From Bacteroidota bacterium (GTDB lineage Bacteria > Bacteroidota > Ignavibacteria > Palsa-1295), in the NCBI GenBank assembly GCA_030706385.1, contig JAUZOQ010000008.1, positions 1-55,724 on the forward strand: a stretch of DNA of 55,724 bases. Direction: 5' to 3'. Shown here piece after piece: positions 9,727 to 27,184 of the stretch; positions within the stretch are counted from its first letter, which is position 1, and every line of letters starts with the position of its first letter. The notes beneath the pieces are model-generated. The model was given only the letters and a program-made list of their open reading frames with translations, was not told the DNA's origin and did not search any database. A program made the position numbers and the translations under genes.

Positions 9727-9769
9727 CAAAAAAAACTATCACCTCTAAGCGCTCCGCATTGAAGCGCTT
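9727..9769 (-). terminator. Probable terminator of the lipoprotein gene
   Basis: AAGCGCT (9747-9753) pairs with AGCGCTT (9763-9769). Reading in the minus direction, about 12 bases later there is a run of eight Ts (As at 9728-9735). It lies 20 bases downstream of the stop codon of the minus-strand gene. Confidence 0.5.
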
Positions 9770-9788
9770 GAAGATGATCACTCATGAA

Positions 9789-11243: not shown

Positions 11244-11301
11244 GGTCGTTTTGTGGTGTAATAATGATGTTGTCAAGAGGAAACTGGAGTCACGATCCTT
11301 T

Positions 11302-11412: not shown

Positions 11413-11432
11413 GCATAACGACTTATAAAATG

Positions 11433-11440
11433 CAAAGATA
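11433..11440 (-). promoter_or_regulatory. Candidate -7 box (TATCTTTG, minus strand) for the lipoprotein gene
   Basis: TATCTTTG preceded by CG fits TAnnTTTG. A CAA triplet (TTG on the minus strand) lies about 24 bases upstream, slightly longer than the usual spacing. The transcript would carry the three GCCAC hairpins. Confidence 0.4.
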
Positions 11441-11509
11441 CGTCATTTTTTCCGTGACCACTCACAATCCAAGAATTCTGTGAGAATCTATACTTTTCCC
11501 GCTAATCCC

Positions 11510-12427
11510 TTAGGGCTCAACGATCCACCATGCAACATTGGATACATCGGTAGCAGATGTTGAGGTGATCGTAAAACTTGTTGCTGCAGTCCGGGCGCTG
11601 ATATACGGAGTGCCGACTGTTGCGGCGGCGCCATTCTGCGACATTAAGAAGATCCTCGAACTCGCCGTAACTTTTGTCGTGTTGACAACGACTGTTCCTC
11701 CGACGAGTGTGGCAAGCCCCATCGTGCCGTTAGCACCTTCGGTGATCTTCAAACCTTTTTGTCCGCTGATGCGGATATTTCCAACGACTTCCAAGGGCTC
11801 ACCCGGCGTAGCAGTTCCGAATCCTACATTGCCTCCCATAAAAATGCCGGCATGGTTGACTCCGCCGCCCGTGGCATTGATGGTGGCGCCTATCTGCGTA
11901 CAACTGCTCCCTGCGCTCCCGTTCACATTTGCTGAGTTAAGACAGAATCCTCCCATAGTCACTCCAGTAGCAGAAGCTAAGGTGTTGGTCACATTTGTGC
12001 TTAGGCCAACGGCGCTGGAATTTATTCCATCTACTACCGTAGACGCAACGAATGCACCGACGGAGTTAATGTTAGCCGCTGTGTTAAGATTCTGAAGATA
12101 GAAAAGATAGTTTCCCGTTGTAGCAGTTTGTTGCGGAGCACCCGGTACATACTGAACTCCGTTTCCAGTCAGCCCGCCCGGTTTTGCGCTCCAGCTCAGA
12201 TTGCCCGCTCCGTCATTCATTAACCAACGAGTGGAATCTGTACTATTCCTATTCGTATCCAGGGCCAGAGTATAATTGGTCAACCCTGAACTTGGCGGTT
12301 TCAACGTGATCGTGTTGGTTCCGTTCGAGAGCACGAGCGATCCTCCCCGCAGCGAGTTAGTTTGCGCCACCAGTGCAGTAGCACCGAAGGCGAGCAAGAT
12401 GAAGGTAGCGATGACTAATTTATACAT
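11510..12427 (-). CDS. Exported fibre-like protein 2 (SRIFL..SARTAGTSFTI tail)
   Basis: The ATG at 12425-12427 is preferred over a TTG two codons upstream; about 305 residues, signal peptide ending LVAQ. The head module (LVLSNGTNTITLKPP ... YTLAL ... DGAGNLSW) is the one shared by most genes of this locus. The middle is Ala/Asn/Thr-rich beta structure with a VGFGTATPGEPLEV turn, like the neck of bacteriophage and Bacteroidota fibres. The C-terminal ~70 residues (TKVTASSRIFL ... SARTAATSFTI ... WWIVEP) belong to a tail domain I know from phage tail and tail-fibre proteins. Two neighbours share this tail. Surface attachment or binding is the likely role; target unknown. Confidence 0.75.
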   Translation of the reverse strand: MYKLVIATFILLAFGATALVAQTNSLRGGSLVLSNGTNTITLKPPSSGLTNYTLALDTNRNSTDSTRWLMNDGAGNLSWSAKPGGLTGNGVQYVPGAPQQTATTGNYLFYLQNLNTAANINSVGAFVASTVVDGINSSAVGLSTNVTNTLASATGVTMGGFCLNSANVNGSAGSSCTQIGATINATGGGVNHAGIFMGGNVGFGTATPGEPLEVVGNIRISGQKGLKITEGANGTMGLATLVGGTVVVNTTKVTASSRIFLMSQNGAAATVGTPYISARTAATSFTITSTSATDVSNVAWWIVEP

Positions 12428-12531
12428 GTTCAAACTCTTTTTCTTTTATCACCGGAGCAAATCGATAAACTGCCGAAGCCCCTGTAACTTCTTATAATTC
12501 ATAAATAAAGCTATACACATTCGCTCTTCCC

Positions 12532-13473
12532 TCAGGGCTCTACGATGACCCATGCCACCGTAGAAGCATCCGTTCCGCTTGTCGAAGAGATCGTAAAACT
12601 TGTTCCCGCTGTCCTGGCACTTACATAAAGTTTTCCCGGATTCGTGGCACTCTGTGTCGTCAGAAAGATTCGCGAATTTGCCGTCACCGATGTAGTCTGC
12701 ACAACTTTCGTACCCGCTGCCAGAACTGCCGTTCCCATCGTACCCGGAGTTGCAGCAGTACCACTCCATTCCGAGATCTTCAAGCCGTTCACGCCGGAGA
12801 TCCTGATGTTTCCGTTAACATCGAGATTTTCCGCAGGAGTCGTAGTTCCGATTCCGCAGAGATTACCGCTTGTTCCGGTTAGGATCAAGGCATAATTAAT
12901 TCCATTTCCCGTTGCATTGGCGCAAAGCCCGGTCTGCGTTCCCGTACCGGCATTCGTGACGTTGATGACGACTCCATTGATCGTGACTCCGGTCGCTCCG
13001 GCATTCGTATTTCTTGCAACTACGTGTAATCCGGCAGCACTTGGATTCGGATTATCGATCTGTGATACGATGACAGCACCGGGTAACGGTCCTACACTTC
13101 CAGGAGCATATTCGACATCAAAAAGGTACTGGTTGTTATGAGTTGTTAATTGTTGAGCAGTCGGTCCAATGAGTAAGGCACCGGAACCTGAAGCATCGGG
13201 AACAGGTGTGCCCCAGGTCATAACTCCATTATTAACTCCCAGAAAAAGTCCTGCACCACTTTGAGCGGTTGGAAGCGTCAACGAATAGCTCTCTAAGAGT
13301 CCGGCGGGAGCAGCTAACGACACGGTATTCGTGGCGTTACTAAATGCAGCTGCATTTCCACGCAGCACACCGGTCTGGCTGTAAAGCTGTCCTGCCAACA
13401 TCAGGGGCAGCACGGCTGCGAATGCCTTCGCACCTAGTGTTGGTCTCAATATCTTTTTGTGAACTGGATTCAT
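12532..13473 (-). CDS. Exported fibre-like protein 3 (SRIFL..SARTAGTSFTI tail)
   Basis: 313 residues, with an ATG at 13471-13473 preceded by GAGGA. The signal peptide has a long n-region (MNPVHKKILRP...) and ends LYSQ. Head module NATNTVSLAAP ... YSLTLPTAQ ... NGVMTWGTP; neck turn CGIGTTTPAENLDVNG; tail VTANSRIFLTTQ ... SARTAGTSFTI ... VAWVIVEP. It is paralogous to its two neighbours (11510 and 13501) but the middle is diverged. The stop of the upstream gene lies 27 bases before its start, so the two are probably cotranscribed. Confidence 0.75.
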   Translation of the reverse strand: MNPVHKKILRPTLGAKAFAAVLPLMLAGQLYSQTGVLRGNAAAFSNATNTVSLAAPAGLLESYSLTLPTAQSGAGLFLGVNNGVMTWGTPVPDASGSGALLIGPTAQQLTTHNNQYLFDVEYAPGSVGPLPGAVIVSQIDNPNPSAAGLHVVARNTNAGATGVTINGVVINVTNAGTGTQTGLCANATGNGINYALILTGTSGNLCGIGTTTPAENLDVNGNIRISGVNGLKISEWSGTAATPGTMGTAVLAAGTKVVQTTSVTANSRIFLTTQSATNPGKLYVSARTAGTSFTISSTSGTDASTVAWVIVEP

Positions 13474-13500
13474 ATAATTCTTTTTCCTCAGAGCCTCGTG

Positions 13501-14409
13501 TTATGGCTGAATGATGATCCATGCAATATCGGAAGTATCCGTATTGCTCGTGGAAGTGATCGTGAAGCTCGTGCCTGCAGTTCGCGCACTGACGTACGGC
13601 ATTCCCACAACGCCTCCGGGTTTTTGCGCTGTAAGAAGTATTCGCGACGTTGCAGTAACCTTTGTTGTATTCACAACAACTGTACCGGCTGCAAGCGTGG
13701 CAAGCCCCATTGTTCCGTTCGCTCCCTCGGTTACTTTTAGTCCGTTTACTCCGCTGATCCTGACATTCCCGCTAACTTCTAATTGTTCTACCGGCGCTCC
13801 GGTACCGATACCGACGTTTCCGCCCGTCGTTACAACTGCATAATTTGTTCCGCCACCTGAGACGGTGACCTGCAATCCGGTCTGTGTGCCTGTTCCAGAA
13901 TTACCGACCGTATCGACAAGGGCCACAACAATTCCAGCATTTACATTGGCATTCTTAATATTTCGAGCCGTATCGGTAAGTCCCTCAAAAGATGTATTCG
14001 AACCTCCATTGCCGACAACATTGATCAAGGCGCCCACGGCCGGTCCGGAATCGGTTGTCTGGTAACCGATATTAAAAAGAGGAACTCCCAAGTCGTTAAG
14101 TACTTGAGGCCCGCTGACGTTGTAGAGTACCGTTCCTGTGCTCGTAGCCGAGACGGGTACGCCCCAGTGCAGATTACCGGTTCCATCGTCAAAAATATAT
14201 TGCAGTCCGTTTGCCGTATCGACCGGAAGTGTTAGTGTCCAGGTCTTCGGAGAACCGGGAAGTGTAAGCGTGATAGCATTCGTGCCGTTACTGAGCACTG
14301 CCCTTCCACCGCGCAGCGTTCCGATCTGTGCAAAACTTGTCGATGTGCACAGAAGAACCAGCGCAGAAAGAGCTGCTGCGAATCTCCCGAACTTGACTAT
14401 GGCCGTCAT
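13501..14409 (-). CDS. Exported fibre-like protein 4 (SRILL..SARTAGTSFTI tail)
   Basis: An ATG at 14407-14409 gives about 302 residues; a TTG three codons upstream is an alternative. Signal peptide MTAIVKFGRF... ending SFAQ. Head module LRGGRAVLSNGTNAITLTLP ... DDGTGNLHWG; neck turn VGIGTGAPVEQLEVSG followed by RISGVNGLKVTEGANG, nearly identical to genes 2 and 3; tail TKVTATSRILL ... SARTAGTSFTI ... IAWIIIQP. Spacing of 48 bases to the upstream gene suggests cotranscription. Differences among the three paralogues are concentrated in the middle third. Confidence 0.75.
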   Translation of the reverse strand: MTAIVKFGRFAAALSALVLLCTSTSFAQIGTLRGGRAVLSNGTNAITLTLPGSPKTWTLTLPVDTANGLQYIFDDGTGNLHWGVPVSATSTGTVLYNVSGPQVLNDLGVPLFNIGYQTTDSGPAVGALINVVGNGGSNTSFEGLTDTARNIKNANVNAGIVVALVDTVGNSGTGTQTGLQVTVSGGGTNYAVVTTGGNVGIGTGAPVEQLEVSGNVRISGVNGLKVTEGANGTMGLATLAAGTVVVNTTKVTATSRILLTAQKPGGVVGMPYVSARTAGTSFTITSTSNTDTSDIAWIIIQP

Positions 14410-14457
14410 GTTTTTCAAAGTCTCTTTCAGATCAAAAGTGATACTGCAAAAGTAATG

Positions 14458-16149
14458 TTACTGAACGCGTGTTGCCTTCAGGTGCGAATTCGTCAGGATC
14501 GTTGTTGTGGCTGCCTGACTGGTTGCCTGAGCTTCCTGCAGCTGCAGATTCCCTGCTGTGCCTCCGACAACGACGATGCCGGAAACAAAGATGCTCTGAT
14601 CGTTAGTCGATGTTGTTGCATCGACATGAAAAGTCGAAGCCGCCGTTCCGGAAGAGGTGATCGAAGAAGGCGTGATCGCCGTTCCTGCCTGATCGAAGCT
14701 CCAGCGAATCGAAGCACCGGCAGGAATGGTGAATGCAATTTTCAGATCGCTTGAAGTCGTCGATCCGTCATAGGCGATAACACCGGAAAATTCATATGTT
14801 GCATTTGCAACCATAGGAATGAAGAGATCTGCATCGCTCTGTAGCGTTGTGTTCGAAGCGGTGAGCACAACATCCGTGGTCTTGCGAGCGAAGGTCACGG
14901 CTCCAGCCGATGACCAGCCCAGCGTGATCGCACTGCCAGCAACAGATGTTGCCGTCAAAACCTGGTTCGTCGTCGGCAGCGTTGTCGGCAGAGTGTAATT
15001 CAGATTCGTCGCACCCTGCGCACCCGTGGTGAAGGACGAAACACCGGCACCATTTCCGGTAAGTGTCAGGATGTTGTTCACGCCCGAGAGAGTAAGATTT
15101 TCATTTGTCGAGACAGTACCGGAAGCATCGGTGATCGAGGAATTACCGAGAGCAGATGAGCTTGTCCAGACTGGGATGCTATTGATGCTGCCCGATCCCG
15201 TGATCGTACCGCTACCCGAGGCACTTAATGTCGTACCCGTCAGAGTCAGTCCGGATCCGATCGTAATTTCTTCAACAGAACCGGCGCCAGCCGATGCACG
15301 TCCTAACAAACGAGATGTTGCCGATACGTTCTGCATGTTGGCATACGTAATGAGCGCTTGATTGATCTGCTGTCCGGTAAGAGTAAGATATGTTCCGGGG
15401 CCGGCAACAGTAACATCGCCGGAATTTGTACCCGTAAGATTTAAGAGAGTCTTGATCGCTGCGGGACTCTGCTCACTTGGCGGAGCAGCAATACCGGATG
15501 TATTTCCGAGCAACGTGTTATTTGTCTCGTTCTGGATCCCTCCATATGGAAGCTGTCCCGAAACATTGCCGCCGGAAAGATTGACCGGACTGGCAGTAAT
15601 GACTTGTCCTGCAATGCTGAGGTAATTCTGGCCTGCAAGAGTTACGTCGCCGGAATTGGTACCTGTAAGATTCAAAAATGTTTTTACATCGCTTGCCGTC
15701 AGTTCCGTAACGCTTGCCGGCGATGCAGTATTATTACCGAGGATCTTGTTTGCGCCTACATTCTGGATATTTCCGTAGGTGATCAAAGCCTGATTGATCT
15801 GCTGACCGGTCAGTGAAAGATAGGAACCCGGACCTGCAAGAGTCACATCTCCGGTATTCGAACCCGATGAACCTGTGAGCCCGAGGAAGGAGAGCATCGC
15901 AGATTGCGTAGCCCACGACAATGTGCCGGCCTTATTAAAGAGCGGTCCGTTCGTGCTTGTGCCCGGAAAGGTCAGCGTGTATCCGCCACTTCCGAGAATG
16001 GGAGTTTGCAACGTAAGCGTATTGGCGATATCATTGCCGCTGCCCGAGAGGACGAGCTTCTGCCCGTACTTCGGTGCATACGTTTGTGCAGATGCAGCAG
16101 AAGTAAGCACTGCAGCAGCTATCGTCATTGCGATAAGGATGTTTTTCAT
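14458..16149 (-). CDS. Exported fibre-like protein 5 with three internal shaft repeats
   Basis: The ATG at 16147-16149 (MKNILIAMTI..., signal ending ASAQ) is preferred over an upstream in-frame start that would cross a strong hairpin. 563 residues. Head module KLVLSGSGNDIANTLTLQTP ... YTLTFPG ... AGTLSWA (30-80). Then three shaft repeats of about 70-75 residues (from ~98, ~165 and ~241), each starting N.GDVT.AG and containing a TGQ.I turn, very like the shaft repeats of tailed-phage fibres. The C-terminal domain from FARKTTDVVLTASNTTLQSD to LKATRVQ is a phage-type tail related to that of the gene at 22802. No catalytic residues can be assigned. Confidence 0.75.
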   Translation of the reverse strand: MKNILIAMTIAAAVLTSAASAQTYAPKYGQKLVLSGSGNDIANTLTLQTPILGSGGYTLTFPGTSTNGPLFNKAGTLSWATQSAMLSFLGLTGSSGSNTGDVTLAGPGSYLSLTGQQINQALITYGNIQNVGANKILGNNTASPASVTELTASDVKTFLNLTGTNSGDVTLAGQNYLSIAGQVITASPVNLSGGNVSGQLPYGGIQNETNNTLLGNTSGIAAPPSEQSPAAIKTLLNLTGTNSGDVTVAGPGTYLTLTGQQINQALITYANMQNVSATSRLLGRASAGAGSVEEITIGSGLTLTGTTLSASGSGTITGSGSINSIPVWTSSSALGNSSITDASGTVSTNENLTLSGVNNILTLTGNGAGVSSFTTGAQGATNLNYTLPTTLPTTNQVLTATSVAGSAITLGWSSAGAVTFARKTTDVVLTASNTTLQSDADLFIPMVANATYEFSGVIAYDGSTTSSDLKIAFTIPAGASIRWSFDQAGTAITPSSITSSGTAASTFHVDATTSTNDQSIFVSGIVVVGGTAGNLQLQEAQATSQAATTTILTNSHLKATRVQ

Positions 16150-16208
16150 TGTCGTCCGTCGTCTCATAAATGTAAAACTCTTGTATTGTTCTAGTTTTCC
16201 GTTGCTCC

Positions 16209-16238
16209 GGGATGGCCTGCCTTTATGCAGGCCATCCC
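16209..16238 (-). promoter_or_regulatory. Perfect 12-bp hairpin upstream of fibre gene 5
   Basis: GGGATGGCCTGC (16209-16220) pairs without mismatch to GCAGGCCATCCC (16227-16238) across a six-base loop. It lies 60 bases before the start of the 14458 gene in the minus direction and lacks a T-run, so a leader structure or a stop point for the upstream transcript are both possible. Confidence 0.55.
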
Positions 16239-16265
16239 AGGAACGACGCACCTAACTTAACACGT

Positions 16266-16324
16266 ATAGGACAATACTCCGAATAGCTCGGGGATAACCC
16301 CCGTAAGAGTATCGTGTCTCCTAT
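16266..16324 (-). promoter_or_regulatory. Three-tier hairpin at the 3' end of fibre gene 6
   Basis: Nested stems ATAGGA/TCCTAT (outer), ATACTC/GAGTAT (middle) and CGGGG/CCCCG (apex, 16289-16293 with 16299-16303). The outer arm touches the stop codon of the 16324 gene. No T-run follows in either direction. Confidence 0.5.
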
Positions 16325-17985
16325 TAATAACCAGCGATCACACGCCAGGCACCGGTCGCACCAACGGAATTTGTTGCGTTGGCATCATAGACCAGAGTAA
16401 CGGTACCATCGACACCGAGAACGATGTCAGATCCGCCTTGCAAATGGAATTGGTTTGTCGAAGTGCTGCTGGCGTTCTTATCCTTGAGGACGATCACGTC
16501 TGCAGTCAATGCGCTATTGTTCACCAGAACGATCATTCTTCCGGCAGTACCACCGGCAATACCGGTAAGGTCAGAAGAAGCTCCTGTTGAATTCTGAAGA
16601 TAGATGATTCCCTGATTTGCTACGATCGGTCCGAAGTTATTCGTCGTCGCAGTCGAGATATTATTGGTCGTGCTCGGTCCGAGTGTGATCGAAGCGCCGG
16701 CATCGGCCCAGCTCGGAGCGCCTGCGCCTGTCGAGGTCAGCACCTGTCCTGCATTTCCTGCACCCGTGAAAGCATATGCCGATCCCGTTCCGTAAGCAAC
16801 GCCACCATTGGTCGGAGTTGCACTGGAATTGGTACCACCATGTGCGATATTGATGAGCGTCGTACCGCCACCATTGATCGAGTTAACAAAAGCATCGCTC
16901 TGAGCGGCATTGGTCTGGAAAGTTTGTGTTGCCCCCCACGCATTCGAGTGCGTGAGATTCAGATCGTAGTTCGCCGTACCGCCGAGCGAGATCGCACCGG
17001 GGGCAGTGAGGGTCAAACCCGTACTTGTGAAGGTGATCTGCGAAGAAGCAAGCTTTGCGTTGGTGACGATTCCGTTCGGAATATCGCCGGTTACCATTGC
17101 GCGGAAGGTAGGCGTTCCGGCGGATGCGTCCGGAGCGGCGAAGATCGTGTTAGCAGCTTCCGATGCCAGTGAAACTGCGTATGAGCCGCCAACTGCATTC
17201 CCGCTTCCAACTGTTGAGAAGATCGAAGGAACGGTGATGGCGCCGGTGACAACATTAAGAGCGGTTCCGATTCCGTTGCCGCTGAGATTTGTTGAATTGA
17301 TGTTCAAACCTGTCCAACCTACGGTGCTTGAGCCGTTCGTGGTTAGGAATGTGTTCGTTGCACCAGGAGCGATACCGGCTGTTGTCAAAGTACCGAATCC
17401 GAGAGTCGTGCCGCTTACGCGCAAGATCTGCCCGTCGGTGCCGGTGATATCGGCAACATTGCCCGTAGAATTGGTACTGTTACCGACGACTGAGAGGCCT
17501 GCGCTCTGACGGAATTGAGCGTTCGTGACCTTGTTCGTTCCGATCGCCGTAACACCGGTATTGAGGATGGTTACATCGCCTGTTACAGCAGTGGATACCC
17601 ATGACGAACCTTGTCCGATCAGAAGATTTCCTGAAGTACCTGCGGTAGAACCGAGGGTGACTCCATTGATCTTCGCAACCGTGTTCGTTCCTGCATTGCC
17701 CGTTACGTCACCTGCTAAGACAACTCCCGTGGCAGGGTTTGTCCAGCTCATGACACCTGCTCCATCTGTGGTCAGAATGTATCCGCTAGATCCGGTAGCT
17801 CCTGGCAAAGTGAGGGTGAAGCTGGATCCTGCCGGAGCAAGAAGAGTGGTAGTATTGACAAGACTCGATCCGCCGCCGGCTAGTACTAGCTTCGTTGCGT
17901 AATCGGGTTTGTACGTCTGTGAGTATAGTGAGGGGGCGCAGACCGCTACCGTGACAATAGCGAGCATAGCAATGAATGTTTTCAT
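16324..17985 (-). CDS. Exported fibre-like protein 6
   Basis: 553 residues from an ATG at 17983-17985; signal peptide MKTFIAMLAIV... ending LYSQ. Head module KLVLAGGGSSLVNTTTLLAP ... FTLTLPG ... LTTDGAGVMSW. The shaft is rich in Gly/Thr/Asn and carries phrases found in phage fibres (LAGDVTGNAGTNTVAKING, TNTFLTTNGSSTVGW, IAHGGTNSSATPTNGGVAYG). The C-terminal ~85 residues (YLQNSTGASSDLTGIAGGTAGRMIVL ... LVYDA...) are the GRxI...LVYD domain seen also in 18064 and inside 22802. Upstream spacing of 78 bases contains two GCCACG motifs. Confidence 0.75.
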   Translation of the reverse strand: MKTFIAMLAIVTVAVCAPSLYSQTYKPDYATKLVLAGGGSSLVNTTTLLAPAGSSFTLTLPGATGSSGYILTTDGAGVMSWTNPATGVVLAGDVTGNAGTNTVAKINGVTLGSTAGTSGNLLIGQGSSWVSTAVTGDVTILNTGVTAIGTNKVTNAQFRQSAGLSVVGNSTNSTGNVADITGTDGQILRVSGTTLGFGTLTTAGIAPGATNTFLTTNGSSTVGWTGLNINSTNLSGNGIGTALNVVTGAITVPSIFSTVGSGNAVGGSYAVSLASEAANTIFAAPDASAGTPTFRAMVTGDIPNGIVTNAKLASSQITFTSTGLTLTAPGAISLGGTANYDLNLTHSNAWGATQTFQTNAAQSDAFVNSINGGGTTLINIAHGGTNSSATPTNGGVAYGTGSAYAFTGAGNAGQVLTSTGAGAPSWADAGASITLGPSTTNNISTATTNNFGPIVANQGIIYLQNSTGASSDLTGIAGGTAGRMIVLVNNSALTADVIVLKDKNASSTSTNQFHLQGGSDIVLGVDGTVTLVYDANATNSVGATGAWRVIAGY

Positions 17986-18013
17986 AGAATTAAGAATAAA
18001 TATATAATGTATA

Positions 18014-18037
18014 CCGTGGCTAAAAAAAAATCGTGGC
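18014..18037 (-). promoter_or_regulatory. Paired TTAGCCACG motifs before fibre gene 6
   Basis: On the minus strand, TTAGCCACG occurs twice (centred on 18035 and 18017) around a run of Ts, in the 78-base spacer between two minus-strand fibre genes. These are members of the GCCAC motif family; no strong stem forms here. Confidence 0.35.
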
Positions 18038-18063
18038 TAAAATTCAGAACGAACTTAACAAAA

Positions 18064-19443
18064 TTAATTCGTCGATACGATTTCCCAAAATCCTAATGTA
18101 CCGTCGTAAATAAGAGAGACCGTGGCTTTCGGCCCCATGATAATATCTGCGCCTGCCGGAAGATCGAATTGATTCGCGGCTGCGGATCCCTGTTGGCTCT
18201 TTAATGTAATCGTGTTGGCACCGACGTTCGAGATCGTGATCATCCTTCCGGCAATCCCTCCGGTAATTCCCGTGAGGTTTATTGCGCCTGTGCTTGAAAT
18301 GCGGAAGTATGAGTTCGAGGCGCTGAGCGCATAATCGTTGGTATTGGCAACAAGCGATGCCGGAGTGACCGGAGTAAGCGCTTCACCACCTAAGGTTTGT
18401 GTTCCTGTCCAGGTATTCGGGTTGGCAACATTAAGAACGAGATTGCTTGCCGTTGTCCCCGCACCTGATAAACTTGCGTTATGCTGAATGTTTGCATCGA
18501 CCGGAGTAGAGATGCCGTTTCCGGTGAGCCCTGTTCCGACGCTGAGCCCCGTCCAACCAACGGTAGATGATCCGTTTGTCGTCAAAAATGTATTCGTTCC
18601 GCCCGGAGTAATGCTTGAAGTTCCGACGGTTGACCATGTCGGTGTTGCACCTGTACCGGCGCTGGTCAAGACTTGGCCCGAATTACCGACCGCACCATTC
18701 ATGCTCAGCGGCGAAGTGGTGCCGACAAGTTGCATAGTTCCGGTCACATTTGTCGAACTTGCTGCGCGACCGATCGAGACATCTCCGGCAGAAGAAGTCA
18801 TCGAGACATCGCCGTTTGCCCTGACGTTAAAGAGCGGTACACCGGCTACGCCTGCAGCAGTCTGCTGAGATACATCGAGTGCCATAGATTGAATTCCGTT
18901 GCTTGCAACCTTGATCTCAACACCATTGCGGCTATTGGTCGTAGCATCTGAATTCCAAAAAGCGGCTACATATCCGTTCGTATTGATCATCCAGGAAAGA
19001 CTGTTGCCCGTTTCGCCATCGCCGTTCGCGCCGACGATATTGGTGCCTGAGGGAACGTTGGCAAGTAATGTGCTGGGATTCGATTGACCGATTCCGATAA
19101 ATCCGGTTGCCGTCATTCTCATGCGCTCGTTACCGGCAGTCTTGAAGATGACATCGTAGTTGTTGGTCGAGCCGAAAAATTGCGCAGGAGTTGCAGGAGT
19201 GCCTCCGGAGAGGATATTCCCCACGGCCATCCATGCAGGAGCCGGGCCGCCGCCGCCATCGGTGAGCAATGTGCCACCGCCGACGGGGAACATGAAAATA
19301 TCGAGAGCATCGACAGTCTGCCCTTTCAGGAGCGAGTAATGCCCGCTTCCGTCATCAACTTGAACTTGATGCTGTGCGCGAACCTCATTGTTTGTGAAAA
19401 GCGCAAATAGTGCGATAATTGCAAATAGCCGAAAATGTTTCAT
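18064..19443 (-). CDS. Exported fibre-like protein 7
   Basis: The ATG at 19441-19443 (MKHFRLFAIIAL..., signal ending VRAQ) is preferred over an in-frame start 14 codons upstream. 459 residues. The mature N-terminus (HQVQVDDGSGHYSLLK ... GGGTLLTDGG) matches that of protein 1 at the far left end of the array. The shaft has a GFIGIGQSNPSTLL neck turn and the phrase TNTFLTTNGSSTVGWTGL shared with its neighbour. The C-terminus (YFRISSTGAINLTGITGGIAGRMITI ... VSLIYDG...WEIVSTN) is the same tail domain as in protein 6. It is the first gene of the leftward arm, reading away from the central hub. Confidence 0.75.
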   Translation of the reverse strand: MKHFRLFAIIALFALFTNNEVRAQHQVQVDDGSGHYSLLKGQTVDALDIFMFPVGGGTLLTDGGGGPAPAWMAVGNILSGGTPATPAQFFGSTNNYDVIFKTAGNERMRMTATGFIGIGQSNPSTLLANVPSGTNIVGANGDGETGNSLSWMINTNGYVAAFWNSDATTNSRNGVEIKVASNGIQSMALDVSQQTAAGVAGVPLFNVRANGDVSMTSSAGDVSIGRAASSTNVTGTMQLVGTTSPLSMNGAVGNSGQVLTSAGTGATPTWSTVGTSSITPGGTNTFLTTNGSSTVGWTGLSVGTGLTGNGISTPVDANIQHNASLSGAGTTASNLVLNVANPNTWTGTQTLGGEALTPVTPASLVANTNDYALSASNSYFRISSTGAINLTGITGGIAGRMITISNVGANTITLKSQQGSAAANQFDLPAGADIIMGPKATVSLIYDGTLGFWEIVSTN

Positions 19444-19596
19444 TTGTATTCCGTGGTAAACGAATGCTTGAAAATCAGATTTCACTGTCGATTGGAAATT
19501 GTGGCAATTCCCAAACTGCTATTCTAATGTATTTTTTCCCGTGTTCTCTGCACAGAACTTTTGTAAAAATTCAGTGCCTTACTCATCCGTGGCGTG

Positions 19597-19604
19597 CAAA
19601 TATA
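19597..19604 (-). promoter_or_regulatory. Candidate -7 box (TATATTTG, minus strand) of the leftward fibre arm
   Basis: CAAATATACG on the plus strand, the same string as at 9355. TTTTTG lies 23 bases upstream on the minus strand. Expected leader about 145 bases, containing GCCACGG (19587-19593) and ACCACGG (19451-19457) motifs. Confidence 0.45.
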
Positions 19605-19971
19605 CGGTGAGAATTTCCAAGCCCACACAAAAACGGAAAAATTTTCCCTAAGTGCTTTATTTTCAATATGTATATTTTCCGTATTTCGAGGATTCTTCGA
19701 AATAAGTTTGCTTTGAAATGACGTATGAATCCACGACTGGATACATTGGAATTCTGACGAATGCTTAGATCGAATTCCTCTCTCATCATTGTCTCAAATT
19801 TACTACGAAGGTGGAGGGACTGATGTCGTTGAAAATAATAAAATCCGTGCCAAACAGTGCCCCATAATTGCACAATTTGCTCCATAAATCAACATTCTCA
19901 TTTTTTTTCCTGCGATTCCGTACTCCAAAAGGCATAAATCTTACTTTTACTAAGTTTTCTCCGATTTCCGA

Positions 19972-20032
19972 TTTGCATTCAGTTTTTCAATGATGTATTT
20001 TTGCATCACTTGTGAGCGCACAAGTATTTTTT
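19972..20032 (+). promoter_or_regulatory. Candidate plus-strand promoter overlapping a hairpin/T-run
   Basis: TTTG (19972-19975), 20 bases, TATTTTTG (19996-20003). Immediately downstream ACTTGTG (20008-20014) and CACAAGT (20019-20025) form a perfect stem with an AGCG loop followed by TTTTTT. Either the hairpin is a 5' cap of a long leader toward 20545, or it terminates a transcript from further left and the promoter match is chance. Confidence 0.4.
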
Positions 20033-20401
20033 ACGACGAAATTTTCTGCGATCGCGCAAGGAGCGTTTCACAGAGAAAGAGTCATCGAAAAAGAAATTGA
20101 TAAGAGTTAGTTTGCATCTGCAGGGTTTGCCGCCCCGCATTAGTTACTGCCTTATTTCCAATCATTCCTTGAGATTTCGATAGGAGATCTCGGAATATCG
20201 CCCCCTGCCATGGGAGATCTGGAAATAAACTTTAAGATTTTAGGATCGGGATGCTTCCGCCCAAAAGACGGCTGGAAGTTTTTTGATCAACTTTCGGTCA
20301 CGTGACCGATTCGATTGTTTGTTTTCGGCTCCGTTCGTTTTTTTTGCTTGGAGGAGCAACGCGAACGATGCCCCGTAGTATGTTATCACGAGCATTGGAG
20401 T

Positions 20402-20469
20402 CTTCCGCGCCACGGAAGGTACAATGTCACTAAAAAAAAATCATTAGACCATCCGCGCCACGGAAGGTA
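20402..20469 (+). repeat. Two direct copies of a CGCCACGGAAGGTA hairpin box
   Basis: CTTCCG-CGCCA-CGGAAG (20402-20418) is a 6-bp hairpin; a second copy (CCGCGCCACGGAAGGTA, 20453-20469) lies 48 bases later. They precede the first gene of the rightward fibre arm by 76-125 bases. The core CGCCACGGA is found once in the opposite orientation at 19586-19594, before the leftward arm. Confidence 0.5.
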
Positions 20470-20544
20470 AAGTGAATATCAACAAGATGAACAATATCTG
20501 CTTGCCATTGCGCTAAGCGAGAGACTATTTTTATTATCGAATTT

Positions 20545-21309
20545 ATGAGAACAAGACAACTAATCATTGCCTGCATGATGCTTTGTGCCTTTAGCAAGAT
20601 CGATGCTCAAACATTCGGCCGCATTATCGGTGCCGGAAGTTTCGAAGTTGATGACGGCACACGCTCGGGTAAGACACTGCGTTGGGATGTTGCTTCGCCT
20701 TTAAGCGCTTCCTACATGCTGCATTTCCCAAGCAATCCGCCGACAGGTGGTCAAAACTTCCTGACTGCTGACGGTAATGGCAACATGAACTGGGCTACCA
20801 ATATCCTGCCACCTCTTCCGCCCGGAAACATGTGGTGCGGAAATGAGGCAAGCATTGCAACGCCAATGGCACCGGGTACGATCGGAAGTATCTTAGGAGT
20901 AGACGTGAACGGAATGCCGGAATGGCTGACGACTCTTCCGAACGCAGTGAGCGTATCGGCTAGCCAAATAACGAGCGGCACACTTCAGCCAGGTACAGCA
21001 ATAACCGTAGGCAACGGATCATCGATTTCGCCCTCAGGTACGGGACTCATTGTCGCCAATCGTCTCGGCGGCTCAGGTGTGAACAAGTACTCAGGTACAT
21101 TAGCGATTCCGCTCAATGCCCTTTCGATGAATATTAATTATTCCGGAGTTACCGCGTCATCGACCATTCTCGTATCGATCATCGATCCGAGCGGCCAGAC
21201 AGCACAGGTATCGGTAGCGAATATTACAGCTGGAATAGGATTTGCCGTCATCTTTTCCGGATACTATCCGACGACCACAGGAAGTTTGAATTACATCGTC
21301 ATTAATTAG
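20545..21309 (+). CDS. Exported fibre-like protein 8
   Basis: 254 residues; signal peptide MRTRQLIIACMML... ending IDAQ. Head module GSFEVDDGTRSGKTLRWD ... YMLHFPSNPPTGGQNFLTADGNGNMNWAT, so the head is shared even though this gene is on the other strand. A short Gly/Ser/Thr-rich shaft follows, with the phrase ITSGTLQPGTAITVGNGSS. The C-terminal ~80 residues (VNKYSGTLAIPLNALSMNI ... GYYPTTTGSLNYIVIN) resemble the tail of the next gene. It is the first gene of the rightward arm. Confidence 0.75.
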   Translation: MRTRQLIIACMMLCAFSKIDAQTFGRIIGAGSFEVDDGTRSGKTLRWDVASPLSASYMLHFPSNPPTGGQNFLTADGNGNMNWATNILPPLPPGNMWCGNEASIATPMAPGTIGSILGVDVNGMPEWLTTLPNAVSVSASQITSGTLQPGTAITVGNGSSISPSGTGLIVANRLGGSGVNKYSGTLAIPLNALSMNINYSGVTASSTILVSIIDPSGQTAQVSVANITAGIGFAVIFSGYYPTTTGSLNYIVIN

Positions 21310-21336
21310 AACATTTATTTACTTAACAACAACCAG

Positions 21337-21368
21337 ATAATAATTTCCACGCCATGGGCAATTATTAT
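21337..21368 (+). promoter_or_regulatory. 9-bp hairpin with GCCAT apex between fibre genes 8 and 9
   Basis: ATAATAATT (21337-21345) pairs perfectly with AATTATTAT (21360-21368); inside it CC/GG closes a loop containing ACGCCAT. It lies in the 96-base spacer and presents the same kind of GCCA(C/T) loop as the other mini-hairpins of the locus. Confidence 0.5.
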
Positions 21369-21405
21369 TGATACTTAACATAACCACGTAGTCACTAAAA
21401 AAACA

Positions 21406-22506
21406 ATGAAAACATCAATCAAAATCACCCTCGCGCTTGCAATCGTAAGCTTTTTTACGGTCGCAGCACAGGCACAATTAACAGCACCTTTCGCTGGTGG
21501 CGTAAAGCTTCAGCAGGGCGGCGTAACCAATCCCCAATTCGGAATTGGAATGAAGGCGAAGCAGACCTATACCAGCGATTTTACGCTGAACTGGGCTCAG
21601 CCGACATCCAACGGAGTACTGAAGCTTTCGGGCTACGGTGTTGGAGGCGGTGACGTTGTCGTGAGTGCACTCGATCTTTCCACAGATGTCGGTTCGAGCA
21701 TCCTCGGTATTGCCAATGGCGGTACAGGTTCTTCGACTGCGAACGGAGCATTGAACAATTTGCTCCCGACACAGACCGGTAACAATGGAAAATTCCTCGT
21801 CACCAATGGTTCGAACACGTCATGGACGACGGCTGTCACTTCAGTCGGCCTCTCGTTGCCGAGCGAACTTACAGTCTCGAACTCGCCGGTAACAACAACA
21901 GGAACATTGACCGCGGCTTGGGCAAGCCAGAGCGCGAACAAGATCTTCGCTTCACCCGATGGATCTGCTGGTGCACCGTCTTTCCGTTCGATGACGTCAA
22001 ATGACGTTCCGAATCTCGATGCTTCGAAGATCGCAACCGGAACACTTCCGGTCAACCGCGGCGGAACGGGCGTTACTTCACTTGCTGCAAATGGAGTTGT
22101 TACGGTTAATGCAACCGGTGATGGACTCGTTTCGACACATTTGAATGACGGCCAGATCATGATCGGTAACACCAGCGGCGGAGCATCGGCTGCAACGCTT
22201 ACTGCAGGCAGCGGCATCAGCATCACGAATGCCGGTGGTGCCATCACGATTTCATCGAATGCCAATGGATTGAATAAATCTCGAATCGCTCTGAGCGCAT
22301 CACAGTATAGCTATACTGCAAATGCAGCTCCGGCTGGATTCACGTTGACAGCGACTTCGGTCATCACGATCACCGTTTTCGAAGCAGGCGGATATCCTAT
22401 CACTGCGACCGTAACTAACATCAATACATCGAATAATACATTCGATTTTGTGATCTCGGGTTACCCGACGGCGGGCAGCTCAGCGCTTATCGCTTTCCAG
22501 AACTAA
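21406..22506 (+). CDS. Exported fibre-like protein 9
   Basis: 366 residues; signal peptide MKTSIKITLALA... ending AQAQ. The head is a variant (VKLQQGGVTNPQFGIG ... DFTLNWAQPTSNGVLKLSG). The shaft has hallmark phage-fibre phrases: LGIANGGTGSSTANGALNNLLP, GKFLVTNGSNTSWTT, VNRGGTGVTSLAANG. The C-terminal ~80 residues (NKSRIALSASQYSYTANAAP ... YPTAGSSALIAFQN) are related to protein 8. No enzyme motif or sorting domain. Upstream ATG context has AAAAAAACA and no Shine-Dalgarno. Confidence 0.75.
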   Translation: MKTSIKITLALAIVSFFTVAAQAQLTAPFAGGVKLQQGGVTNPQFGIGMKAKQTYTSDFTLNWAQPTSNGVLKLSGYGVGGGDVVVSALDLSTDVGSSILGIANGGTGSSTANGALNNLLPTQTGNNGKFLVTNGSNTSWTTAVTSVGLSLPSELTVSNSPVTTTGTLTAAWASQSANKIFASPDGSAGAPSFRSMTSNDVPNLDASKIATGTLPVNRGGTGVTSLAANGVVTVNATGDGLVSTHLNDGQIMIGNTSGGASAATLTAGSGISITNAGGAITISSNANGLNKSRIALSASQYSYTANAAPAGFTLTATSVITITVFEAGGYPITATVTNINTSNNTFDFVISGYPTAGSSALIAFQN

Positions 22507-22640
22507 GCAATAAAGTATAGTTCGCAGTTGGCGGCCGAAGGCAGGATACCCACAAAATATCTTAACTGAAAGCCGCTGACTGCAAACTGTTTTGAACTCG
22601 TGAGAGAGAAAGACCATTGCCTGCTTAGCAGGTTTGCCAG

Positions 22641-22739
22641 ACAAATACCCCTCTTTGTATAGTGAGTTTTATCGTCAGACAATGAAGAATACAAGTTTAG
22701 AAATTGAAAAGTGTTCTATGCAAAGTGAGGGGTATTTGT
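22641..22739 (+). promoter_or_regulatory. Long leader hairpin before fibre gene 10
   Basis: ACAAATACCCCT (22641-22652) pairs perfectly with AGGGGTATTTGT (22728-22739), and pairing resumes inside with TTTG/CAAA and TATAG/CTATG, giving a stem of about 20 bp around a 50-base loop. A GCCAC motif (CCCGTGGCAGG, 22741-22751, GCCAC on the minus strand) abuts the right arm. A weaker imperfect inverted repeat (GCAGTTGGCGGC near 22518 with GCCGCTGACTGC near 22572) lies upstream. Confidence 0.5.
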
Positions 22740-22801
22740 TCCCGTGGCAGGTTCTCCGCAAGTACCCCCATTTCTTTTCAGGTAGCATGAAGAATAGGAT
22801 T

Positions 22802-24544
22802 ATGAAAAAGAATTTTATGAAACAATATCTTACGTCACTGTTCGCAATTGGAATACTTGCGATCACAGGCCAGTCATTCGCGCAGCAATCGTTATTCGGA
22901 ATCCGATTGCAGGATGCGAACAGTCATGTCCTTTCCATCAATGCACCGACGACAGGATTTACGGCAAGCTATAATTTTCGTTTTCCGGCAGGAATGCCTG
23001 CAGCAGGTGCTCTTCTTTATGCAAGCGATGGGGCAGGACAATCTGCCTGGCTTCCCGCCGGAACTGCGGGGCAAGTGCTATCATTCGCAGCGGGGTTACC
23101 AGTCTGGACGGATATCAATACCTTGATCTCAGCCACAACTGGATGGGCAGTTACGGGTAATGCCACTCTATCTGCGTATAATGGAATAACCGGAAGTTAC
23201 CTTGGCACAAGCACTGCGCAACCTCTCGTCGTTGCGACGACAAATATTCTCAGTCCGCAGCCGATCGAATTCTATACGAATAACTCTGAGAAAATGCGCC
23301 TGAGTTCAGGAGGCGAACTTGGAATCGGGCTTTCACCGACAGCAGGTAAACTCTTGCATGTGGCCGGGACTGCCGGAACGTCGAATATTCGGTTGGCTTC
23401 TCTCGCTTCCGCGACCGGAACAACAGGACGCATTATGTTCGCTACTGATGGAACAGGGGACCTTCAAACCCTCGCCTTCCCATCTTCTTCAGGAATGGTG
23501 CTATCATCAACGACATCCGGCACATTGAGCTGGGTAAGCGAAGCATCAGGATCGGGTTGGACAACGACAGGAAATTCCGGAACTTCACCTTCAACAAATT
23601 TCATCGGCACTACCGATGCGCAGGATCTTGTCGTTAAGACCGGCGGCAGCGCATCGACGAACGAACGTCTCAGAGTAACGAGTGCAGGGAAGATCGGTAT
23701 CGGTAATATTATACCGAGTGCAACTCTCGACCTCAAGGGAGATTATGCAACTCGTTACGCAGGAAGCACACTATCGAACGGAGTAAACAATGATGTCGAT
23801 CCGAGTTCATCTAGCTATCTTCGCATTTCCGGACCAACGGCTGCATACTCGATCACCGGCTTTGCCGGCGGATCGGACGGTAAGCGATTGACGATCTTCA
23901 ATGCGACAGGACAAGTCTTGACGTTATCTTATGATAATTCTTCGGCGACATCCGGAAACAGGTTATTCATTCCGACCAGATCCGATCTGACGGTTTATGA
24001 TTCCGGTACTGTAAGTCTCGTTTACGATGCCGTGAACGCCCATTGGAGTGTCACCAACTTTACGAATGCTCTCCTTCCGCAGGTTGGCGCACAAATACTT
24101 GCACGCAAGCCGAGCAATGAAAATCGCACAACCAATACGACGATGACGAATGATGCGGATCTGCAATGGTCTGTCGGAGCGAATCAGGTTTGGGAAGTCA
24201 GGGGAATGCTCATCGTTTCCTCGGGCTCTTCCACACCGGATTTCAAATTTCAGTTCGTCGGCCCCGGTGGAACGGGCGATGGACTCACGCTCGATCATAA
24301 AGCCTACAGCATTAGCTCAACAGGAGGTGGTTTCAGCGAAATCAACTTGATGACAGCGTACTCCAGCAGTTCAGGAGATATCACAGTGAAGAATAACGCA
24401 AAGACCGTCGTTGAAGTAGCTGGGGTATTTACGATCGGATCTGCCGGAGGATCGGTAAAGCTGCAATGGGCCCAGCAAAATTCAAACGCAACTGCCACCA
24501 CATTGGAAAAGGATACTTACTTATTCATCACAAGGATCCAGTAA
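22802..24544 (+). CDS. Exported fibre-like protein 10, two tail domains in series
   Basis: The ATG at 22802 (after AGGA) gives a typical signal peptide (MKKNFMKQYLTSLF... ending SFAQ), 580 residues; ATGs at 22787 and 22817 are alternatives, and the far upstream start at 22634 would run through the leader hairpin. Head module LFGIRLQDANSHVLSINAP ... YNFRFPAGMPAAGALLYASDGAGQSAW. Neck turn LGIGLSPTAGKLLHVAG. It contains the SSYLRISGPTAAYSITGFAGG..GKRLTI ... VSLVYDA domain found at the end of proteins 6 and 7, followed by the LARKPSNENRTTNTT ... KLQWAQQNSNATATTL ... ITRIQ tail related to protein 5. Such a tandem shows recombination of tail modules. Followed by a strong terminator. Confidence 0.78.
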   Translation: MKKNFMKQYLTSLFAIGILAITGQSFAQQSLFGIRLQDANSHVLSINAPTTGFTASYNFRFPAGMPAAGALLYASDGAGQSAWLPAGTAGQVLSFAAGLPVWTDINTLISATTGWAVTGNATLSAYNGITGSYLGTSTAQPLVVATTNILSPQPIEFYTNNSEKMRLSSGGELGIGLSPTAGKLLHVAGTAGTSNIRLASLASATGTTGRIMFATDGTGDLQTLAFPSSSGMVLSSTTSGTLSWVSEASGSGWTTTGNSGTSPSTNFIGTTDAQDLVVKTGGSASTNERLRVTSAGKIGIGNIIPSATLDLKGDYATRYAGSTLSNGVNNDVDPSSSSYLRISGPTAAYSITGFAGGSDGKRLTIFNATGQVLTLSYDNSSATSGNRLFIPTRSDLTVYDSGTVSLVYDAVNAHWSVTNFTNALLPQVGAQILARKPSNENRTTNTTMTNDADLQWSVGANQVWEVRGMLIVSSGSSTPDFKFQFVGPGGTGDGLTLDHKAYSISSTGGGFSEINLMTAYSSSSGDITVKNNAKTVVEVAGVFTIGSAGGSVKLQWAQQNSNATATTLEKDTYLFITRIQ

Positions 24545-24566
24545 AGAAGGATTGTTTTAGATACAC

Positions 24567-24636
24567 TAGCAAACACCATAGCCTCCCGAATTCTATCAGG
24601 CGCCGATACCATTCCTAATGGTATCGGCGTTTTTTT
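24567..24636 (+). terminator. Strong rho-independent terminator with conserved 5' box
   Basis: CGCCGATACCATT (24601-24613) pairs perfectly over 13 bp with AATGGTATCGGCG (24617-24629), loop CCT, then seven Ts. The 20 bases before it (TAGCAAACACCATAGCCTCC, 24567-24586) recur almost unchanged at 25032-25050 ahead of another hairpin. Ends the rightward fibre arm. Confidence 0.9.
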
Positions 24637-24765
24637 GCCCCCTGATTCTGCAAAAACACCGCAAAAACGCCATATTTTCCTCGAAATACGCTAAATTGAA
24701 GTTGACTAAGGTTTTTAAGAAAATAAATTTGTTTATTTGTGGGGATTTGTGTATTTTTGTGGAGT

Positions 24766-24868
24766 TGATAAAGGGCTAAACTAATTTCTTGTTTGTTTCA
24801 TACGGTCCGATGCACACATCAACGGGTACCTGTTTTCTTGTGGCAAGAAGCAGGTACATCTTTTTTTA
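24766..24868 (+). ncRNA. Candidate small RNA A
   Basis: A promoter TTTG (24728-24731)-N20-TATTTTTG (24752-24759) predicts a start near 24766. About 60 bases later GTACCTG (24826-24832) and CAGGTAC (24851-24857), with an inner TTCTT/AAGAA stem around GTGGC, form a long hairpin followed by TTTTTTT (24861-24867). No open reading frame fits between them. A promoter-to-terminator unit of about 100 bases is what an independent small RNA looks like. The loop GTGGC is the complement of the GCCAC loops in the fibre locus, a possible base-pairing target (inference). Confidence 0.5.
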
Positions 24869-24989
24869 AATAATTTCCAATCGTATTTCCGAGCGCTTCG
24901 GTAGCTGTAAGTGCCTGTTTTTTTAGGTGCTTCAAAGCTATTGCTAATGAGTCAAGGTATGCAGGGACTAAGGTTACCGCAATTTTAGA

Positions 24990-25021
24990 TTTGGAAACCC
25001 CGATTTATTTATTTATCTTTG
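24990..25021 (+). promoter_or_regulatory. Candidate promoter of small RNA B
   Basis: TTTG (24990-24993), 20 bases, TATCTTTG (25014-25021); the spacing is identical to that of the promoter of RNA A at 24728-24759. Predicted start near 25028. Confidence 0.55.
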
Positions 25022-25027
25022 TATTAG

Positions 25028-25176
25028 GAAATAGCTAACACATACCCTCCCTTGATTTTTGGATGCCGGTTTCATGCAAATGGTACCGGCATTCAAATAT
25101 TTTAAGGGCAAGTTTTCTTCGAAGGTTTAGCAATTTCTTTTCCGCGTAACTGCCGCAATCCCCAAGCGGCTTTTTT
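25028..25176 (+). ncRNA. Candidate small RNA B
   Basis: Starting near 25028, the transcript would carry a box TAGCTAACACATACCCTCCC (25032-25051) and then a hairpin ATGCCGGT/ACCGGCAT (25063-25070 with 25085-25092) capped by CAT-GCAA-ATG, a GNRA-type loop. The 3' end could be just after this hairpin (about 25105, weak T-rich tract) or at GCCGC/GCGGC followed by TTTTTT (25152-25176). Box plus hairpin repeat the arrangement at 24567-24629, so this looks like a duplicated RNA module. No convincing ORF. Confidence 0.45.
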
Positions 25177-25187
25177 ATTTTCGGCAA

Positions 25188-25213
25188 TAAAAAAGGACGG
25201 CTTGGAGCCGCCC
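25188..25213 (-). terminator. Terminator of the 25241-27184 gene
   Basis: On the minus strand GGGCGGCT pairs with AGCCGTCC (25206-25213 with 25195-25202) and is followed by a run of Ts (As at 25188-25194). It lies 28 bases after the stop codon and converges with the plus-strand hairpin at 25152-25176. Confidence 0.75.
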
Positions 25214-25240
25214 TTTCTGAATAATGCAAAAAGGATTCCT

Positions 25241-27184
25241 CTACTTCACGTAGATAACCTTACGTGTCACTTCGTCACCACCGGATTGAATAAGGAGAAG
25301 GTATTCACCGGGTGAAAGCCTGAGCGAATGTGCATCGAGACTGAAGCTATACTTCTCGCCCATTCCAAGTGAAATCCTCTTCGAGGAAAAGATCTCTTTG
25401 CCGAGCAGATCCCGGACTTCGAGCGAAGCCGGGCCTGCCTGCTTTGCAGTCAGCGTTATCATAGTCGATGAGGAAAAAGGATTTGGAACAACTGAAAGAT
25501 CGAATAGCGGTGAATTGCTCTTGACTCCTCCGCTCGGTTTATCTTTACCGACACCATTCAAGGTGACTTTCAGCACGCTATCGCTCTCGGCTTTCTTCGC
25601 ACTATCCTGATAGTGAATCTCAAGCACTGCCGTGAACGAACGCGGAGCATTTGGAGAAAACTTGACAGGAAAGGCCAGAGAAGAATGTCCCAATACTGTT
25701 GCCGGAGCAGGATTTGGCGAGAGAGAGAAGTTGGCCATATCGGCACCGGTGATCGTCGCGGAAATGACATTGACCAGTGATGATGTCGTATCCCTGAGCG
25801 TCGCAGGAATCGTCACATCATCGGAGCCATCGTCAAAATGTGTTCCAAAATCGAGTATGGGAACATCCATATATGCAGTACCATCCTTATAGGGAGGTGG
25901 TACATATTTATGGATAGCTCCGGCAGTAAGGATCGGCTGGCGCTCCATCTTAAGGGGATCGTTCTGAATAAGAGTGACACCATCGGTCCGAAGATCATAT
26001 ATATAGACGCCCGATTCCGCAGCCGTTGCATAATCATCACCGCGGCAAGTGACAAAAACCACTGAGTCACCTCCCGGAGAGAACATCATGTCTCCCCCGT
26101 TACCATTCGGAGCACCTTCGAAGGGAGTGATCACTTCTTTATCATCATCCGGAGTTAAGGGACTACCCGTTATACCAGTAAAAAAATGAAGTCCATTTGG
26201 CAATCGGCTGCGAAGAATCTTCCGAGCCGGGTTTGCCGTCAGAGCTATTGAACTCCCCGCATTCCACCGGAAACTATACATGGTAAGATCACCCGTTGTA
26301 TTCGGAGCCAATGCTATCTCTGCTGTTGGATTTGGCTGATTCGGAATAACTCTGAACAAGAATCCAAAACACGTATCAATATTGCCGCCCGTGCGGAAAT
26401 TCGGAACGGTCTGGATCTTATCGGCAAGAAATCCGAACGTTCCGACACCGGTAGTCGGAGTCCAGCGGAAAAGCTGGGCACGAGGCTTATCGCTGGTCAT
26501 GCACTGGTCGAAGACAAATGCAAGCATCGTTTTTCCGTCATCGCTGGTTGCGAGATTGGACATGTGATATCCTGCAATTGCCGCAGCATCGGGATTTGCA
26601 TCATGTACATAAACAGAATCCACTACTCCCGACCCGTCAAATTTTCCATGAAAGAACCATTGCTGCCCGCTTCCGGGAGCTGACTTCACCGGCGTCGCAT
26701 ACCATTCGGTTTCATCCGGAGTAAGTACTCCGAGCGGAAGGAATTTCAGAAACGGATCGATCGATTGCGTGCTGGTAATTACCTTAAGAATTTTTGCACC
26801 GCCGAGTGTATACGGAGGTGTGAACGATATAATGCCTCCGGTATTGGTGAAAGGCGAATCGATGCGAGCGATTGCCCAGGCGCTATCGACAGAACCGATA
26901 GGGGTCTTGAATATTGCTTTACCGCCTATCATGAGTGATTTTCCGTCACGAGTCGATGCAAGAACGGAGAGATTCTTCACCGTAACCGTCCGTCCGGCTT
27001 TATCGGTAGCTGTTTGAAATAGCGTATCCGGCCTCTTAGCACCTAAAGTCTTGGCAAGGATAGCCGTCCGCTCGCTATTGGTATATACTACACGGGCGAC
27101 AACCGTATCCTTTTGCGCAAAAGCCTCTTCAGAGGAGAAGAACGCACATAGGATCAGAAGGGAAAAAAATGGAAGTGATTTCAT
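25241..27184 (-). CDS. Secreted propeller-like protein with T9SS sorting domain
   Basis: 647 residues; signal peptide MKSLPFFSLLIL... ending AFAQ. The central 400 residues read as a series of PD40/WD40-type beta blades (DGKSLMIGG, DDGKTMLAF, DDDKEVITPF, GGDSVVFVTC...). Then a choice-of-anchor/ASH-like Ig domain (ATITGADMANFSLSPNPAP ... SSLAFPVKFSP). The last ~85 residues are a Por/T9SS C-terminal sorting domain (VVPNPFSSSTMITL ... DLLGKEIFS ... GEYLLLIQ ... VTRKVIYVK), so it should pass the outer membrane by T9SS and be attached or released at the surface. A -7-like TATTTTTG (27221-27228, minus) with TTTG 23 bases upstream lies before it. Confidence 0.85.
   Translation of the reverse strand: MKSLPFFSLLILCAFFSSEEAFAQKDTVVARVVYTNSERTAILAKTLGAKRPDTLFQTATDKAGRTVTVKNLSVLASTRDGKSLMIGGKAIFKTPIGSVDSAWAIARIDSPFTNTGGIISFTPPYTLGGAKILKVITSTQSIDPFLKFLPLGVLTPDETEWYATPVKSAPGSGQQWFFHGKFDGSGVVDSVYVHDANPDAAAIAGYHMSNLATSDDGKTMLAFVFDQCMTSDKPRAQLFRWTPTTGVGTFGFLADKIQTVPNFRTGGNIDTCFGFLFRVIPNQPNPTAEIALAPNTTGDLTMYSFRWNAGSSIALTANPARKILRSRLPNGLHFFTGITGSPLTPDDDKEVITPFEGAPNGNGGDMMFSPGGDSVVFVTCRGDDYATAAESGVYIYDLRTDGVTLIQNDPLKMERQPILTAGAIHKYVPPPYKDGTAYMDVPILDFGTHFDDGSDDVTIPATLRDTTSSLVNVISATITGADMANFSLSPNPAPATVLGHSSLAFPVKFSPNAPRSFTAVLEIHYQDSAKKAESDSVLKVTLNGVGKDKPSGGVKSNSPLFDLSVVPNPFSSSTMITLTAKQAGPASLEVRDLLGKEIFSSKRISLGMGEKYSFSLDAHSLRLSPGEYLLLIQSGGDEVTRKVIYVK

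Follow-up and report, generated by a model that had tools for sequence, protein, structure and literature searches.

The locus and its setting

The window analysed here, meaning the whole stretch of 55,724 nt, is contig C140 of a 3.5-Mb genome assembled in 161 contigs (G000). A second species of the same genus (G001) is the sole same-genus genome that was found among the relatives. The interval 24545-25240 is the gap between a fibre-like gene on the plus strand (22634-24544) and, on the minus strand, a convergent gene whose protein is T9SS-sorted (25241-27184). The TTG start listed for the fibre-like gene at 22634 precedes a long inverted repeat, CAAATACCCCTC..GAGGGGTATTTG at 22645-22740, which lies in the leader of this gene, and is probably wrong; the real start of the gene is probably the ATG at 22803. 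A fibre-like cluster extends over ~8200-24600, and several of its genes carry a K1-lyase C-terminal domain.

The original prediction placed two small-RNA genes between a terminator at 24601-24636 and a convergent one at 25188-25213, and both terminators are present in the sequence. We refer to the two units as RNA1 and RNA2. The gene downstream of the pair is convergent in both species and there is no same-strand neighbour gene downstream, thus neither unit is a leader. No tRNA was found in the window, and no Rfam family reached the gathering score for the window, RNA1 or RNA2, with weak chance-like matches as the only ones below it.

A promoter module with a fixed upstream site

Two promoters of the pattern TTTG-N20-TAnnTTTG had been proposed at 24728-24759 and 24990-25021, and both were confirmed at these coordinates with spacers of exactly 20 nt, each followed downstream by the hairpin that had been described. 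Sigma-A promoters of Bacteroidota consist of a -33 TTTG and a -7 TAnnTTTG (PMC6847099); with ~19-21 nt between the two elements as the criterion for such a promoter, the N20 spacing was found at both units and again in G001, and both core elements of the published promoter are therefore present 20 nt apart at each unit. The bare pattern (spacer 17-22) was counted four times in the window where 1.1 would be expected; it is not significant alone, since 5 of 100 shuffles also held at least four. The promoters become significant through the hexamer ACTAAG at a fixed distance upstream together with conservation in G001: at both units and in both species, ACTAAG stands exactly 17 nt upstream of TTTG.

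Promoter module 1 (24705-24759, plus strand) comprises ACTAAG at 24705-24710, N17, TTTG at 24728-24731, N20 and TATTTTTG at 24752-24759, and it matches the three-part module with 0 mismatches. It is 87% identical in G001, against 49% for the stretch upstream of it. Promoter module 2 (24967-25021, plus strand) comprises ACTAAG at 24967-24972, N17, TTTG at 24990-24993, N20 and TATCTTTG at 25014-25021; it shows only 60% identity to G001, yet all the named elements and their spacing are kept.

Searching for ACTAAG-N17-TTTG-N(18-22)-TAnnTTTG returned ten sites in G000 and two in G001, which are exactly the two units, while 11 other genomes and the reversed control gave none. When the upstream spacing was freed to 5-35, all sites of G000 and G001 still had 17, and the single extra match, in G005, had a different spacing. 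Allowing up to two mismatches added look-alike sites in G000 (C19), G001 (C4, C216 and C217) and a genome of the sister genus, G006 (C182), and in the other genomes such matches scattered as in the control. At the G006 site (L116, ~1448-1700), a module with one mismatch starts an orphan stretch of ~190 nt with a clean intrinsic terminator at its end. The ACTAAG element, 17 nt upstream of -33, is absent from the consensus quoted in PMC6847099; in this analysis it occurs in a single genus, apart from one imperfect site in the sister genus. Its extended form is ACTAAG(G/A)TT, and its position at about -59 to -54 would be compatible with an activator site.

Three of the ten G000 copies lie in the window, beginning at 19949, 24705 and 24967. 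The additional one (19949-20003, plus strand) precedes the leader of fibre gene 20545+, and BLAST gave no match to this leader in G001. Two hairpins follow, one with a T-run at 20008-20031 and another that resembles a terminator at ~20247-20287. The stretch behind this module is possibly a third sRNA, or else a leader subject to attenuation.

RNA1

The starts of RNA1 and RNA2 were predicted by the G at -5 convention of PMC6847099, that is, 5 nt past the last G of the -7 element. On this basis, RNA1 would be ~105 nt long (24764-24868, plus strand), with a variable 5' part, a conserved core at 24794-24870 that contains the invariant ATGCACACATCAACG, and a terminator. The T-run terminator proposed for the end of the first unit held up, and RNA1 has an intrinsic terminator in both species: at 24825-24868 on the plus strand, GTACCTG..TTCTTGTGGCAAGAA..CAGGTAC is followed by ATCTTTTTTT, as supported by the fold. 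The loop GTGGC originally read here exists when the last G-C pair is left open, but in the minimum-energy fold this pair is closed, which leaves a TGG loop of 3 nt. Identity to G001 reached 88% in the core, 50% in the 5' part and 32% in the following spacer, and the pairing of the stem is kept in G001 through G-U and A-U exchanges.

Neither unit had been thought to encode a plausible protein, and we found no convincing ORF. The sole frame of note begins with an ATG at ~24810 in RNA1 and has 19 codons (ATG CAC ACA TCA ACG ...). That the units are cis-acting leaders or attenuators whose gene has been lost, or genes for short peptides, draws some support from this frame being open in both species; however, the four codons that differ from G001, as read from the alignment, are all non-synonymous, the stop is not kept, and the convergent neighbour in both species argues against a leader. 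We regard this explanation as highly improbable and rejected coding potential for the short frames. A conserved body free of coding constraint, as expected for an sRNA gene, is what was observed.

RNA2

RNA2 would comprise ~77 nt (25026-25102, plus strand), beginning with an invariant 5' block at 25026-25060 that includes CCCTCCC, followed by a hairpin ATGCCGG...CCGGCAT at 25057-25098 on the plus strand. This hairpin is strong, lies ~30-70 nt past the predicted start and shows one compensatory exchange of G-C to A-T relative to G001. A conserved T-run terminator is lacking. If the end were a T-run element further downstream, a longer alternative of ~153 nt (25026 to ~25178, plus strand) would result; its possible terminator, GCCGC-N9-GCGGC-TTTTTT at ~25152-25178 on the plus strand, is not conserved in G001. 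The whole of RNA2 is 84% identical to G001, its first 35 positions, counted from the predicted +1, are all identical (35 of 35), and the downstream sequence is 32% identical.

The identical block of RNA2 begins at the very position expected for transcription start, 5 nt past the last G of -7, and this bears on whether the conserved blocks are instead DNA sites, serving protein binding or the insulation of convergent and tandem genes, with no stable RNA of importance. Inverted repeats and a conserved ACTAAG that resembles a protein site are indeed present. Nevertheless, the elements are arranged in one direction, from the promoter through the predicted +1 and the conserved body to, in RNA1, a terminator; this arrangement, the start of the RNA2 block at its predicted +1, and stem changes that include G-U pairs and so fit an RNA make this alternative very unlikely. 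RNA1 and RNA2 are very probably real sRNA genes of new families, as judged from their comparison in two species.

A role of CCCUCCC as a general anti-Shine-Dalgarno sequence was also considered and rejected. Of 33 start regions in the window, 6 had a Shine-Dalgarno sequence where 14% would be expected at random, hence no enrichment; the same lack is general among Bacteroidota (PMC6847099), and CCCUCCC would therefore not be a general blocker of such sequences.

Conservation and distribution

BLAST of 24640-25240 gave a 68% match in G001, where both units are adjacent, 274 bases apart versus 262 here, and adjoin the orthologue of the T9SS gene (68-69%). Conservation of the structures had been set beforehand as a point on which the original prediction could fail, and promoters, bodies and stems are all kept in G001. 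The support from covariation is thin, as there are only two species.

Beyond the genus, no homologue was detected by BLAST, and covariance models of RNA1 (R2) and RNA2 (R1) matched only in G000 and G001 among 391 genomes of the class. RNA1 and RNA2 thus look genus-specific, although the models were built from two pairs, and stricter filters were applied in scoring the large sample, which could have hidden weak relatives. In other genomes of the family, the downstream flank of T9SS homologues is without such units. Phage records contained no match to RNA1 or RNA2; among exact core strings searched in IMG/VR, one 15-mer had 51 matches, about the chance level by our estimate, and a further such search gave none.

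RNA3, a sibling family behind the module

Seven of the ten exact G000 sites of the module lie outside the window, and six of these seven, as well as the mismatched C19 site, precede members of another RNA family, RNA3, which suggests that the module mostly fronts non-coding RNA. RNA3 folds as a three-way junction with an outer stem and loops GAUGGCAAA and GCCGGUAA, with compensated changes in 8 of 21 pairs, and the family is not in Rfam. Nine copies were found in G000 (contigs C16, C19, C49, C104, C107, C110, C125, C137 and C150) and one in G001 (C216), at loci L033, L035-L038, L040, L126, L140, L154 and L155. Most stand behind the ACTAAG module; L154 and L155 match the RNA3 model and lack an exact promoter module.

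Possible pairing with fibre leaders

The original prediction further noted that the GTGGC loop complements GCCAC loops in the leaders of the fibre genes. Such loops do exist in several fibre-cluster leaders, including two in the leader of fibre gene 20545+ (20402-20472, plus strand) that were named as possible pairing partners, and the leaders of cluster genes 9789-, 16324-, 18064- and 20545+ all show GCCACGG in hairpin loops. GCCAC was seen nine times in fibre-cluster leaders against 1.55 expected, it is together with the overlapping CCACG and CACGG the most enriched non-homopolymer 5-mer there, and in the hairpin loops of the leaders it outnumbers permutations of its own letters.

Pairing was scored by accessibility-corrected contiguous helices at 11 fibre-cluster starts versus 22 other starts of the window; these helices took the place of plain duplex energies computed along entire leaders, which carried no meaning and were dropped. 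The mean helix energy of RNA1 was -4.0 kcal/mol at fibre-cluster starts and -1.9 kcal/mol at the others, a preference matched by 2 of 600 dinucleotide shuffles (label-permutation p 0.001), with the limits that fibre-cluster starts and the others may not be alike in composition and that the pairing idea was formed after the match had been seen. Masking the RNA1 loop halved the preference. The predicted pairings are mostly short, and the best site, CTTGCCACAGGA at 11343-11354 on the minus strand in the leader of 9789-11276, would form 12 bp with TCTTGTGGCAAG at -9.1 kcal/mol, an energy equalled somewhere by 6 of 60 shuffled RNA1 sequences. RNA2 showed no preference for fibre leaders. We take the preference of RNA1 for fibre-cluster leaders as a hint.

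The comparison with G001 points in the other direction. The fibre cluster is absent from this locus in G001, yet RNA1 with its GTGGC loop is retained there, and the orthologue of ORF 6731-8158 of the window lies immediately upstream of RNA1, which indicates that the cluster of ~8.2-24.6 kb was inserted here or lost there. As far as the fibre loci fetched from G001 show, RNA1 and fibre genes bearing GCCAC leader loops do not co-occur there. None of the fibre loci fetched from G001 or from elsewhere in G000 had GCCAC leader hairpins, and the two hairpins flagged, L134:2097 and L135:3602, fall inside ORFs rather than leaders. The search for the elements beside fibre loci, proposed as a check, went against the idea, as RNA1 adjoined fibre genes in none of the relatives tested. 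Furthermore, no target common to both species emerged among the genes tested (the T9SS gene, the orthologues of 6731 and 29617, and other G001 genes). This phylogeny speaks against fibre regulation as the conserved role of RNA1.

RNA1 might still be a dedicated regulator of the fibre cluster whose GUGGC terminator loop kisses the GCCAC leader loops. The enriched leader 5-mers and hairpins, the preference for cluster starts with its dependence on the loop, and the promoter module common to RNA1 and the leader of 20545+ would fit such a role; we nonetheless find it doubtful in view of RNA1 without the cluster in G001, the missing leader loops at other sampled fibre loci, the ordinary best energy and a hypothesis chosen after the fact. 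A wider version, in which the ACTAAG module defines for this genus a dedicated regulon composed largely of structured non-coding RNAs (RNA1, RNA2 and multicopy RNA3), joined by a fibre operon, and RNA1 coordinates this species' fibre cluster via GCCAC kissing loops, seems quite unlikely to us; if true, an old sRNA would have been adopted by an incoming surface-protein cluster. The signal between RNA1 and the fibre leaders makes one specific pairing hypothesis testable.

Proposed mechanism and comparison with known sRNAs

The reading that we favour, and consider probable, is that of two genus-specific sRNA genes with their own promoters and a common upstream site, likely acting by base-pairing in trans. 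Computation shows both units and their hairpins, how they are conserved, and the promoter architecture that they have in common. First, we infer that RNA1 (~24764-24868) and RNA2 (~25026-25102, perhaps as far as 25178) are transcribed, each under a Bacteroidota-type sigma-A promoter of its own. Second, in the simplest reading, ACTAAG(G/A)TT would be bound by a putative regulator, or by a specialised contact of RNA polymerase, and this common regulator or polymerase form would switch on RNA1, RNA2 and the sibling RNAs, mostly non-coding, together. Third, both RNAs would act in trans on targets that are likewise putative: RNA2 may pair via its invariant and largely single-stranded 5' block with CCCUCCC, in the manner of GibS (PMC7366714), and RNA1 via the invariant AUGCACACAUCAACG linker and/or the GUGGC loop.

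Known sRNAs offer parallels to parts of this picture. GibS is an intergenic trans-acting sRNA of Bacteroides thetaiotaomicron (PMC7366714), and RNA2 shares with it conservation at genus level, an intergenic location, a single-stranded conserved 5' block and a structured 3' part; RNA2 differs in having no clear conserved terminator, and the likeness is one of architecture, with no sequence relation claimed. LhrC of Listeria (PMC4132741), a CU-rich sRNA that exists in multiple copies and is controlled by LisRK, is likewise a case of several non-coding RNAs governed by a single upstream control site, and the exposed stretch of RNA2 is also CU-rich, but RNA1 and RNA2 have one copy each and do not resemble one another, and only their sibling RNA3 is multicopy. 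Rfp18 of Flavobacterium psychrophilum (PMC9723704) is a conserved structured sRNA of the same phylum that is predicted to pair with mRNAs of secreted proteins via a stem-loop, whereas it belongs to another class of bacteria, and no homology is claimed.

Among the open-access papers searched in full text, none names both Ignavibacteria and sRNA, and RNA1 and RNA2 may therefore be among the first comparatively supported sRNA genes of Ignavibacteria. The most interesting part is the fixed-spacing promoter module common to a set of non-coding units, and its fixed upstream site offers a way to trace an sRNA regulon, together with the regulator behind it, in bacteria that have not been cultured.

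Elsewhere in the window, a repeated intergenic string resembling CGTGCCATGCCACTCTATGTATRGGTT occurs at ~39069, 40603, 46316 and 46407.
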